This document shows positions 7,232 to 11,684 of a stretch of 35,880 bases of DNA, one piece after another (position 1 is the first letter of the stretch; each line of letters opens with the position of its first letter). The notes under the pieces are model-generated. The model had not been told where the DNA came from and ran no database searches. It was given only the letters and a program-made list of their open reading frames with translations. The stretch spans positions 1 through 35,880 of the forward strand of contig NZ_JALTCZ010000058.1 in the NCBI RefSeq assembly GCF_027008145.1. The letters run 5' to 3'. This stretch comes from Thermococcus sp. Its GTDB lineage: Archaea > Methanobacteriota_B > Thermococci > Thermococcales > Thermococcaceae. A program made the translations under genes and the position numbers.

Positions 7232-9214
7232 TCACCCGTAGTAGACCTTAACGTCGAGCTGGTAGCTGGCCGTCCAGTAGTAGGTGTCGTAGGCGTAGAC
7301 GAGGAAGTACCAGGTTCCCGGGGCTGGGTTGGCATACTCGACGTGCTCGTTCGAACCGTAGTTCTCTGACCTGTCAACGAGGTTCTTGTTCGGGTCGTAG
7401 AGGTAGAGGTCGAGGTCGTCGTAGCTGCTTCCAGTTAAGTCGCCGGTTATCTTGGTTGCCCCGCTGTTGACGGTCATCTGGTGGACGTTGTAATCGTGGT
7501 AGCTGACGGTTCCAGTGAAGGTCTTCTCGTCAACGGTCGGCTGTGGGCTTGGACTCGGCTGCGGGGCGGGAGTGCTTCCTCCGCCGCTGCCCGGCTGAGC
7601 AAGTGAGCCGTCGCTGACGACGTCAACTTGATAGTTGGCGCTTCCACTGTAGCTGACGACCTTGAGCGTCCAGGTGCCGCTGGTCGGGTTGTAGTAGCCG
7701 ACCTTTTCAAAGCCGTAGTATGCTGTATAGGAGTAGTCAACTTCTTTGCCGTTCGGGTCGTAGAGGTAGAGGTCGAGGTCGCTCTTGCTGTTATCCCAGT
7801 AGAGCGTTGCCGTAACGAAGGAGGCGCCGCTTATCGTGAACTGGTGGCTTGCCTGCCCCTTGTCCGCAACTGAGCCGGTAAAGGTGAGCTTGGCGTAGCT
7901 GTCGTATTTTATGGCCTTGTAGACGTTGATCCTACCGGCACCGTAGGCAACCCCCGCTATCTCGGTCGGGGCGACTATGTCAGCGGTCTCGATGAAGGCA
8001 GTCTTTATCTTGTCCGGACTCCATGTCGGGTGGGCCTGGAGTATGAGGGCTGCGGCACCTGCAACGTGTGGAGTGGCCATGCTCGTACCGGAGGCCTTGG
8101 TGTAGTAGTCGTCGATCGGGGTGCCCATGCTGGTTCCGCTGGCCCTAGGGGCGATGATGTCAACGCCTGGAGCGACGACCTCCGGCTTAAGCCTGCCGTC
8201 CGCAGTCGGTCCCCTGCTGGAGAAGCTGGCTATGGTGTCAGTGCTGTCCACCGCACCGACCGTTATGACCTTGTCGGCGGCGGCCGGTGAACCGACGGTG
8301 TACTTGTCAGGCCCGCTGTTTCCGGCGGCGACACAGACGACAAGTCCAGATGCCCACGCGTTGTTCACGGCCTGGCTTAGGGAGTCGGTACCGTCGGAGC
8401 TCTGGCTTGAGCCGAGGGAGAGGTTGATAACCTTGATCCCGTACTTGTCCTTGTTCTGGACAACCCAGTCGACACCGGCTATGATGTCGGATATGCTACC
8501 ACTTCCCTGGCCATTGAGAACCTTGACACCGACGAGCTTCGCTCCAGGGGCGACGCCGATGTACTGTGAGTTGACCGAACCAGTTCCGGCAATGATGCCC
8601 GCAACGTGGGTTCCGTGCCCGTTGTCGTCATAGGGAGTGGTCTTTCCGTTGACGACATCGTGCCATGCCACGACTTTACCCTTAAGGTCGGGGTGGCTCG
8701 CGTCTATACCGGTATCGATAACCGCGACAACGATGCCACTGCCATCATAACTGAGGGAGTTCCAGACAGTGTCTGCCTGTATCTGGGAAACGGAAGTGGC
8801 GTCCGAAACCTGAACCTTGTAATCCTCCTGAATGAACTTTATTCCAGAAACCTGAGCGTTTCCGAAGAAGCCCGAATCTATCAGACCCGCTATCATGAGC
8901 AGGTTCCTTACCTTTATCCTAACCGCAACGGCGGGGATTATGCTGTAGTCGTACTTGACCTTGGCACCGAGCATGCGGAGGACCCTTATGGCCCTATCCC
9001 TGTCATACTGGTTGTCGAACATTATTATCGTGTTAACCTCTTGGTTCCAGTTCATCCTTTGAACCTTTTTGAAGAGGCCTGGAGTTAAGAGTCCATAGTT
9101 CTTCTCCTGGTGAACGTTCTTGACTTCCACGTGCTTGGGGGGTGCCGCGAGAACGCTCCCAGCCATTATTGCCACGAGGAAGACTGCCCATACAACTATG
9201 GCAAACCGTTTCAT
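7232..9214 (-). CDS. Secreted subtilisin-like serine protease (Tk-SP type) with two C-terminal beta domains
   Basis: The 660-residue preproenzyme matches the Thermococcus Tk-SP architecture: a signal peptide ([20 protein letters not shown]), an N-terminal propeptide (to about residue 135), an S8 catalytic domain, then two related beta-jelly-roll (PPC-like) domains. Catalytic residues are Asp167 (AVIDTGID), His200 (NGHGTHVAG) and Ser378 (SGTSMATPH), with the oxyanion Asn in AAGNSGP. The two C-terminal domains both contain a [10 protein letters not shown] calcium-binding motif and are joined by a Pro/Ser-rich linker. In the characterised Tk-SP the beta domain adds calcium-dependent heat stability. 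GAGGTG lies before the ATG and a TATA element at about 9275 gives a leader near 40 bases. Confidence 0.94.
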
Positions 9215-9282: not shown

Positions 9283-9493
9283 TTTACGGCTTAGATGTCC
9301 TGTTAAAGGATATAATGCAACTTATTAAGCCTCACAGTACAAAATTTTTTTAACAAACAAACCAGCATGTTGCAAGTTTTGGAAAAAGCCATGACAACAA
9401 CTTAGAATTTGATCAAAAGTATAACAAGATTATCATGATATGAAAAGAACAACGATAAATTGGAGAAAAAGCAACAAATTGCACCAGGATTCA

Positions 9494-9549
9494 CGAAGAC
9501 CGGCCCGGCCACGTGGTGCCATTCCTTCCGACATTACTGCCGGCCTTCC
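9494..9549. ncRNA. Candidate structured RNA or leader hairpin, strand uncertain
   Basis: GAAGACCGGC at 9495-9504 pairs with GCCGGCCTTC at 9539-9548, a 10-bp helix (one G-U pair when read as RNA on the minus strand). An inner 4-bp helix (UCGG/CCGG) can stack on it, leaving a seven-base bulge. The element lies between the guide RNA and a minus-strand T5 run at 9466-9470, so it could be the 3' part of a processed transcript reading through from the signal peptidase gene. No ACA or box C/D signature was found within it. Structure alone does not prove a gene. Confidence 0.3.
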
Positions 9550-9613
9550 AAGCTTTCTCCTGTCGGGATTACCAGGGGCTCAACACAAAGGCATTTCTCG
9601 GGAACGCTGATAG

Positions 9614-9670
9614 AGGGTCAGGGGCCGATTAGTTCATCACGCCTCAGCCACCTACCCTCACATCATCCCC
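9614..9670 (-). ncRNA. C/D box guide RNA (sRNA) predicted to direct two 2'-O-methylations in 16S rRNA
   Basis: Read on the minus strand the elements are in canonical archaeal order and spacing. Box C is AUGAUGU (9666-9660, last base off consensus). A 12-base guide GAGGGUAGGUGG is followed by box D' CUGA (9647-9644), a 4-base spacer GGCG, box C' UGAUGA (9639-9634), a second 12-base guide ACUAAUCGGCCC, and box D CUGA (9621-9618). From memory of thermococcal 16S rRNA, the D' guide forms 10 pairs with ACCUACCCUC and the D guide 10 pairs with GGCCGAUUAG, both in the 5' domain. The fifth-base rule then places the methyl groups on the second C of ACC and of GGCC. Box C overlaps the stop codon of the signal peptidase gene, so the sRNA may be processed from that mRNA. 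The ends given are approximate. Confidence 0.85.
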
Positions 9671-10163
9671 CAAGGCCAAAGGCCTCGCGTATCCAGAGGG
9701 GTATCAAGCCGATCTTGGGGAACACCAGCTCAGACGTTGCCTCGATTGCATATGCTGGAACGCAACCCGCAAGCTCGCCGTTCGGTAGCCTCACCTCAAG
9801 TAAACCCTGGGGACTTGGATACGGCGGATCCGGGACGGGGTTGTTGTCCCCCCACGTTACAAAGCACTTCTCGGCTTTCCCGTTGATCTTGAGCGTGTAT
9901 ATGTACCTGACACGGTGGATTATCGGGTACTCGTAGCCGGGTCTTTTGTAGACGACAACATCGCCGACGTGAATCTGGTCGGGGTTGGTCACCCCCTTAA
10001 GCAGGACGACATCGCCCCTGTAAAAGACTGGCTCCATTGAGCCACTGACCACTATGACGAGCGGTGAATCAGTGTGGAGTGTGAACTTCAGGCCCTCCTC
10101 GAAAGCAAACACCGCTATTAAGGCTACCAGAAGCCACGCAACGTCCTTCTGCCACTCCCCCAT
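9663..10163 (-). CDS. Signal peptidase I (archaeal, S26B type)
   Basis: This 166-residue membrane protease removes signal peptides from exported proteins on the outer face of the membrane. One N-terminal membrane segment (WLLVALIAVFAFEEG) is followed by the catalytic serine in VVSGSMEPVF (Ser42), the conserved His in PIIHRVRYI and an acidic motif TWGDNN, the Ser-His-Asp arrangement of the archaeal/ER family rather than the Ser-Lys bacterial one. A C-terminal hydrophobic stretch (IGLIPLWIREAF) may be a second anchor. The gene overlaps the end of the DUF531 gene by 40 bases, and its stop codon lies inside the box C of the guide RNA. Many substrates are visible nearby, including the subtilisin, the CGTase and the envelope proteins. 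Confidence 0.92.
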   Translation of the reverse strand: MGEWQKDVAWLLVALIAVFAFEEGLKFTLHTDSPLVIVVSGSMEPVFYRGDVVLLKGVTNPDQIHVGDVVVYKRPGYEYPIIHRVRYIYTLKINGKAEKCFVTWGDNNPVPDPPYPSPQGLLEVRLPNGELAGCVPAYAIEATSELVFPKIGLIPLWIREAFGLGG

Positions 10164-10693
10164 TTTAACGCCCCCACATACGTTGAAATTTCAGCGACTA
10201 TGGCACCCATAGCAGTACAGGTCTCAAGGCTCACCCTCCTCCCCGTGACATCCATGTGGTACCTGGCCAACTTAAAGGTTTCCTTTGGTAGGCCGTGCCT
10301 CCCGAGGCCAACGAGAAGGAGAAAACTTTCCCCACCAACAAAGGCTTCAGCAAGCTGAAGTGGTGTAATCTCCTTTTCATCGGATGGCTTCCTCGTCGTC
10401 GCAACGGGTGTCCCGAACTGAGGAGGAAAGCCCCTCCGCGGGAAGTCGAGGAGGTGGAACCTGTTCGATAGCGCTAGCTCAATAAGGTATTTCCCGCCCT
10501 CCCCTATGGTCGTCTTTTCAGCGACCGCCTCTGCCACCTCTGAGGGCTTACCCTCGAGGGGGAAGCCGACGAGAGCAAGGTGAAAACCGTAGGCATATGC
10601 CAGCGGAGCGGCGCGGGCTATCGCCCTCAGGTGGGCATCGTGGAACCTCTTGACGCCGTAGGTGTTGTAGAGTGCAAGGGTTAGCGTTGCCAC
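10124..10693 (-). CDS. DUF531 family protein (predicted SPOUT-like RNA methyltransferase)
   Basis: This 189-residue protein matches the archaeal DUF531 family. Recognisable blocks are LTLALYNTYGVKRFHDAHLR, FPRRGFPPQFGTPVATT, FLLLVGLGRHGLPKE and SLETCTAMGAIVAEI. The GLGRHGLP and C-terminal blocks fit the trefoil-knot SPOUT fold, so an RNA methyltransferase role is likely; the target is not known to me. The track start at 10753 lies upstream of the TATA box and cannot be the start. The GTG at 10693, with GGAG just before it and the TATA centre 25 bases upstream, is preferred and implies a leaderless or nearly leaderless mRNA. Divergent from the M19 dipeptidase. Confidence 0.8.
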   Translation of the reverse strand: MATLTLALYNTYGVKRFHDAHLRAIARAAPLAYAYGFHLALVGFPLEGKPSEVAEAVAEKTTIGEGGKYLIELALSNRFHLLDFPRRGFPPQFGTPVATTRKPSDEKEITPLQLAEAFVGGESFLLLVGLGRHGLPKETFKLARYHMDVTGRRVSLETCTAMGAIVAEISTYVGALKWGSGRRTLRGFW

Positions 10694-10713
10694 GCTCCAA
10701 GAAGTTCGGGAGA

Positions 10714-10723
10714 CCTTATAAGG
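10714..10723. promoter_or_regulatory. Palindromic TATA box shared by two divergent genes
   Basis: CCTTATAAGG is a perfect 10-base palindrome in the 58-base gap between the GTG of the DUF531 gene and the ATG of the dipeptidase gene. Its centre is 25-26 bases from the first and about 33 bases from the second start, the correct distances for TBP-directed initiation on both strands, and no other TATA-like element is present. Confidence 0.65.
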
Positions 10724-10751
10724 GTTTTTTCCTATGTCCACCGGTGGTTCC

Positions 10752-11684
10752 ATGATATTCGACGCACACTCCGACCTTCCGACCTTCGTCTATGACGAGA
10801 GGAGGGAGGACAAAACGAGGGTTCTTGAGGGGAACTTCGAGAGGTTCTTCAACGGGATTGGGACAAGAGTAATGGCCATATGGACGCGACCCAACAGGAG
10901 GGGCGACGCGACCCGCTACGCCTTGGAGGTTCTAAACGAGTTTCTCAGAGATGTGGAGGAAAGTGACAGCTTCGAGCTGGTGGGGAACACCGGAGAGATG
11001 AAAAAAGCTATAGAGAGCGGAAGGGTCGCCCTCTGGCTGGGCTTAGAAGGTGGTGAGCCTATCGGGGAAAGCCTCGATCTCCTTGAGGTCTTCTACCGGC
11101 TGGGCCTCCGCGTCCTGACCCTTACATGGAGCCTGAGGAACGCGATAGGGGACGGTGTCTTCGAGAGAACCAAAGGCGGTCTTACCAACTTCGGCGTCGA
11201 GGTCGTGGGGAAGGCAGAGGAACTCGGCATACTGCTCGACCTGAGCCACATAAATGAAGCCGGCTTCTGGGATGCCCTCGATGTTACATCCTTCCCGGTC
11301 ATAGCCTCTCACTCGAACGCAAGGGCCTTATGCGACCACCCTAGGAATCTGACGGACGAACAGCTGAAAGCTATAGGCGAACGTGACGGTGTCGTCGGGG
11401 CCGTCGCGATACCGGGCTTTGTGGACAAAAACAGGCCGACCCTCGACAGATACCTAGAGCACATCTCCTACATGGTTGACCTGATCGGGCACCGGCACGT
11501 CGGCCTAGGCTTTGACTTCGTTTACTACCTAAGGGGCTGGAGCGGGAAGAGCGTTGAGGGCTTCGAGGACGAGTCCAAGATACCTGCTCTCCTGAAGAGG
11601 ATGAAGGAGAACTTCAGCGAAAAAGAAGTAAAGGCAATAACCTTTGAGAACTTCGGGCGGGTTTTTGAACGGGTCGTCGGATAA
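10752..11684 (+). CDS. M19 family zinc dipeptidase (membrane/renal dipeptidase type)
   Basis: The 310-residue protein is a TIM-barrel metallopeptidase of family M19, predicted to cleave dipeptides in the cytoplasm. Motifs in order: FDAHSDLP near the N-terminus (first metal ligands), LGLEGGEPIG (bridging Glu), LTLTWSLRNAIGDG, GILLDLSHINEAGFWD and PVIASHSNARALCDHPRNLT (the two histidine sites), and VGLGFDFVYY. No signal peptide is present. The track start at 10734 includes the ribosome binding site: GGTGG lies four bases before the ATG at 10752, which is preferred. The gene ends base-to-base against the convergent EamA gene. Confidence 0.88.
   Translation: MIFDAHSDLPTFVYDERREDKTRVLEGNFERFFNGIGTRVMAIWTRPNRRGDATRYALEVLNEFLRDVEESDSFELVGNTGEMKKAIESGRVALWLGLEGGEPIGESLDLLEVFYRLGLRVLTLTWSLRNAIGDGVFERTKGGLTNFGVEVVGKAEELGILLDLSHINEAGFWDALDVTSFPVIASHSNARALCDHPRNLTDEQLKAIGERDGVVGAVAIPGFVDKNRPTLDRYLEHISYMVDLIGHRHVGLGFDFVYYLRGWSGKSVEGFEDESKIPALLKRMKENFSEKEVKAITFENFGRVFERVVG

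Follow-up and report, generated by a model that had tools for sequence, protein, structure and literature searches.

The C/D box sRNA sR36 at the 3' end of a Thermococcus signal peptidase gene: predicted 16S rRNA targets, a shared stop codon and probable repeated loss

The window (the whole stretch of DNA analyzed here, 35,880 nt of contig NZ_JALTCZ010000058.1 from Thermococcus sp.) carries on its minus strand a signal peptidase I gene, whose 3' end shares bases with a C/D box sRNA of the sR36 family. At 10124-10163 the signal peptidase gene begins within the last bases of a DUF531 gene (10124-10753, minus strand, PF04407), and owing to this overlap sR36 may belong to a single transcription unit with signal peptidase and DUF531. 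A subtilisin-like protease, which carries Tk-SP N-propeptide and PPC domains, is encoded at 7232-9214 (minus strand). The stretch downstream of the sRNA (9440-9612) shows similarity in one relative only and contains no conserved RNA. The features of the locus are as follows:

9663-10163, minus strand: signal peptidase I gene, 166 codons (TIGR02228 sigpep_I_arch, 122.3 bits, cut-off 51.85)
9663-9665, minus strand: TGA stop of the signal peptidase gene (ORF 9663-10163), inside box C
9616-9670, minus strand: sR36, the whole C/D box sRNA (RF01124)
9668-9669, minus strand: terminal stem, 5' side (stem of the C/D kink-turn), pairing with 9616-9617
9660-9666, minus strand: box C, AUGAUGU (from the sequence; conserved in relatives, with one degenerate copy)
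9648-9659, minus strand: D' guide, 12 nt, GAGGGTAGGTGG (from the sequence)
9650-9659, minus strand: paired part of the D' guide, GAGGGUAGGU; 16S target ACCUACCCUC, predicted 2'-O-methyl C112
9644-9647, minus strand: box D', CUGA (100% conserved in the main length class)
9640-9643, minus strand: D'-C' spacer, GGCG (from the sequence)
9634-9639, minus strand: box C', UGAUGA (100% conserved in the main length class)
9622-9633, minus strand: D guide, 12 nt, ACTAATCGGCCC (from the sequence)
9623-9632, minus strand: paired part of the D guide, CUAAUCGGCC; 16S target GGCCGAUUAG, predicted 2'-O-methyl C229
9618-9621, minus strand: box D, CUGA (91-98% conserved)
9616-9617, minus strand: terminal stem, 3' side, pairing with 9668-9669

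The Rfam search confidently assigned 9616-9670 of the minus strand to sR36 (RF01124; 78.7 bits against a gathering threshold of 55, E=1.4e-17), with a match that spans the whole model (positions 1-55 of 55); sR36 was the only Rfam family to reach its gathering threshold anywhere in the window. Read along the minus strand, the sequence is GGGG-ATGATGT-GAGGGTAGGTGG-CTGA-GGCG-TGATGA-ACTAATCGGCCC-CTGA-CC, i.e. the boxes follow in the order C, D', C', D, with two guides of 12 nt each and a D'-C' spacer of 4 nt. The window has a single instance of this four-box pattern, and 200 dinucleotide shuffles have none. Thermodynamic folding of sR36 alone yields a guide-to-guide hairpin (z = -1.8) and is uninformative, which is no surprise for an RNA that depends on proteins for its structure. 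By its sequence, the element is an ordinary copy of a family already known from heat-loving archaea of the Thermococcus type, and not a new RNA. The preliminary description of this DNA, whose author worked from the raw sequence, had correctly spotted a real guide RNA, with its boxes and 12-nt guides in the right places and the peptidase stop codon in box C, where the TGA at 9663-9665 indeed falls within 9660-9666. Its extent (9614-9670) agrees with that of the Rfam match at 9670, and its start lies 2 nt beyond the Rfam end at 9616.

The assembly of the window (212 contigs) contains no 16S gene, so that the match of the guides to the 16S rRNA of this very genome is deduced from relatives, whose 54 16S genes served for the target checks. 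The two 16S 10-mers that the preliminary description gave as the guides' partners in the 5' domain, ACCUACCCUC and GGCCGAUUAG, are present in 54 of these 54 genes, about 115 nt apart, and neither target site varies among them. In the rRNA operons of six relatives each guide forms 10 Watson-Crick pairs with the 16S rRNA, with the D+5 position paired. When the guides were permuted at random, 1.3-1.4% of draws (for each guide) still gave 10 contiguous pairs with an rRNA operon, which makes a chance origin of two neighbouring matches of this length very unlikely. No further perfect match of at least 8 nt was found for the guides in the one rRNA operon scanned. When G-U pairs were allowed, the D guide gained a single imperfect second site, in the 23S rRNA of 5 of the 6 operons; the third base from box D is mismatched there, and the site is a weak candidate. 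An archaeal "sR36" has been paired with SNORD60 (PMC3511168). Neither sR36 guide has a perfect 8-nt match to the 23S rRNA in the relative's operon searched, and the published pairing may rest on other evidence or on another naming.

The D+5 rule predicts modification of C112 by the D' guide and of C229 by the D guide, in the numbering of a 16S rRNA apparently from T. kodakarensis; in the alignment to the E. coli 16S rRNA these positions correspond to C132 and position 241, respectively. The two target regions fall in helices h7 and h11. According to the Rfam SSU structure alignment, target 1 lies in the 5' strand of h7, while target 2 takes in the last pairs of h7 together with the h11 5' strand, i.e. 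the h7/h11 junction, and the two sites are thus close in secondary structure. The arrangement in which the guides would bind opposite strands of h7 was considered and rejected, as site 2 covers only the last pairs of this helix and then enters h11. In one relative (locus L063, C1:1829924-1829976 of genome G024, presumably T. kodakarensis) the D guide is one C shorter beside box D and therefore the predicted D+5 site moves from C229 to G230; there sR36 lies downstream of the peptidase stop and shares no bases with it.

Full-length sR36 was found in 71 of the 94 genomes of the family, spread over six genera. Conservation of the locus, which the preliminary description had proposed as a check, therefore stands for most of the family; at least 15 relatives keep the signal peptidase gene without the RNA, a finding that the description had named as refuting, but it does not disprove sR36 elsewhere, since the RNA was lost there. 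Within the main length class (45 distinct sequences) all but one of the 20 paired guide bases are conserved to 96-100%, the exception being 9659 (76%), boxes D' and C' are invariant, and box D reaches the 91-98% listed above. The unpaired guide position 9649, the core of the spacer, position 9633 and the flanks are conserved to about 33-56%. The dips in box C come partly from one genus with a one-base insertion and partly from Pyrococcus-like copies, in which the box reads AUGAAGA or AUGAGGA. In the terminal stem the pair 9668:9617 is an invariant G-C, and the pair 9669:9616 occurs as GC (53), TA (8) or CG (1), with pairing retained in 62 of 62 distinct relatives; this compensatory change shows that the stem covaries. 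Selection, judged from the same comparison, falls on exactly the boxes and the paired guide bases. The internal motif is remodelled in 20 Thermococcus loci (L069, L071-L079, L081, L082, L088-L091, L093, L096-L098), which have CCGA as box D', about 5 extra nt between D' and C', and both guides unchanged; L099 combines the longer spacer with CUGA.

The signal peptidase stop falls inside box C in 53 of the 71 full-length copies, and in another 15 it is found about 7-16 nt upstream of an intact box C. One copy (L068) is inverted and faces the peptidase gene tail to tail, one (L017/L185) is unlinked from it, and one sits at a contig end. The unlinked copy (around 2870-2930 of L185, genome G021) has a membrane-protein-like ORF on one side and a malic-enzyme-like gene on the other, lies about 150 kb away from that genome's signal peptidase gene, and is apparently a relocated sRNA gene. 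The boxes and guides are kept where the stop is upstream and where the RNA is inverted or moved, which argues that selection acts on the RNA itself. TGA is the stop in 52 of the 53 copies that have it within box C; among peptidase genes that no sR36 overlaps, be it absent or uncoupled, the count is 18 of 32 (Fisher p = 1.4e-6, calculated with kinship ignored). The sole copy with TAA (L067, G049:C260) has its box C broken to AUAAUGG, and is either a decaying sRNA or an error of a draft assembly.

In 23 of the 94 genomes no full-length sR36 was detected, and a laxer search was empty as well; some of these are incomplete drafts, and G035, G075 and G078 are single-contig genomes. No boxes were present at the peptidase 3' end in the 15 sR36-less genomes examined in this respect, and no second copies of the guides with a C/D layout were found in sR36-less genomes; a match to the guide pattern in G001 was discarded, as no C/D layout surrounds it. 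The 16S targets are unchanged in all 8 sR36-less genomes whose 16S gene could be read. Mapped on the 16S tree, presence and absence require 4 changes, of which at least 3 are forced by well-supported branches, which makes repeated loss likely; to judge by this distribution sR36 was probably lost three to four times. Because about a quarter of the genomes have no full copy while the targets stay the same, the predicted methylations do not appear to be essential. The family thus provides a kind of natural experiment, in which a shift of the stop leaves sR36 in place, and the loss of sR36 leaves the peptidase and the rRNA targets in place: selection acts on the RNA as such, yet the RNA can be dispensed with. 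Since the linkage is uncoupled in some genomes and the RNA is lost in others that retain both the peptidase and the 16S targets, the sharing of bases with the stop codon is incidental to the function of sR36 and not needed for it.

We therefore consider it highly probable that the element is a double-guide C/D box sRNA, carried in the 3' tail of the peptidase mRNA, that would guide methylation of the 16S rRNA at two sites; family membership, boxes, complementarity, selection and covariation of the stem are shown by the sequences. Most likely, transcription of the signal peptidase gene would run on into sR36, and the RNA would be trimmed out of the 3' tail of this mRNA. With L7Ae on both kink-turns (C/D and C'/D') and with Nop5 and fibrillarin added, the RNP would be complete; from the D+5 rule, its D' guide is expected to place a 2'-O-methyl group on C112, in the h7 5' strand, and its D guide one on C229, at the junction of h7 and h11. 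According to PMC4247193, 54 C/D RNAs have been verified in T. kodakarensis; the main text of the circular-RNA paper (PMC9014305), which does not cover linear forms, does not contain the T. kodakarensis interval 1829924-1829976.

Other readings of the locus differ considerably in plausibility. That the 3' end of a coding region and the adjacent intergenic DNA merely resemble a C/D RNA by chance is practically negligible: UGA stop codons do readily seed C and D boxes, but the pattern is missing from all the shuffles, the Rfam E-value is far too low for such an origin, and conservation across six genera refutes it. It is very improbable, too, that the element acts in cis, as a kink-turn in the peptidase mRNA that binds L7Ae and controls the 3' end or translation, with the guides being incidental. 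That almost every copy lies at the 3' end of this one gene would fit such a role, and binding of L7Ae to kink-turns in mRNAs is described for archaea in PMC5539422; however, the paired guide bases are conserved as strongly as the boxes, the RNA persists where it is inverted (L068) or unlinked (L017/L185), and many genomes have signal peptidase but no sR36.

A stronger contender, though in our opinion still an unlikely one, is that the double guide serves mainly as a chaperone of rRNA folding, which, by pairing with both regions at once, keeps the h7 5' strand and the h7/h11 junction open or near each other while the subunit assembles, methylation being secondary. Such a role is conceivable because the targets sit on h7 and on the h7/h11 junction, and double guides directed to sites near each other in secondary structure have been proposed to be chaperones (PMC4644070). 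Against it, the targets are not opposite strands of one helix, and sR36 was probably lost on three to four occasions, its targets remaining as they were. Methylation of the 16S rRNA is retained as the most likely function, and any effect of sR36 on the order of rRNA folding is speculative. A wider proposal, which we regard as doubtful and offer only tentatively, is that through the shared bases the guide RNA constrains the stop codon and the last residues of an unrelated protein gene, that this linkage breaks by a shift of the stop, inversion, relocation or loss, and that the double guide may time the folding of h7/h11 in the 16S rRNA.

Much of what is seen at this locus has precedents, as the sR36 family, stop codons within box C and the general chaperone hypothesis for double guides (reviewed in PMC7994747) have all been published. 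The copy in the window has the same boxes, guides and spacing as RF01124 and differs from it in a few bases of the spacer and flanks. According to Tripp et al. 2017, as cited in PMC7994747, 25% of archaeal C/D genes overlap the 3' end of an ORF and carry its stop codon, in almost half of the cases within box C, and from what is reported there the sR36 locus shows no essential difference from these sRNAs. In comparison with that survey, as cited, a single family was followed here, with its uncoupling, inversion, relocation and loss, and this comparison adds that sR36 is found at the signal peptidase 3' end nearly everywhere. Among the double guides with targets that lie near each other in secondary structure, sR15 and sR17 of N. 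equitans are directed to opposite strands of one helix (h28, h30; PMC4644070), whereas sR36 is directed to the h7/h11 junction and to one strand of h7, the 5' one.
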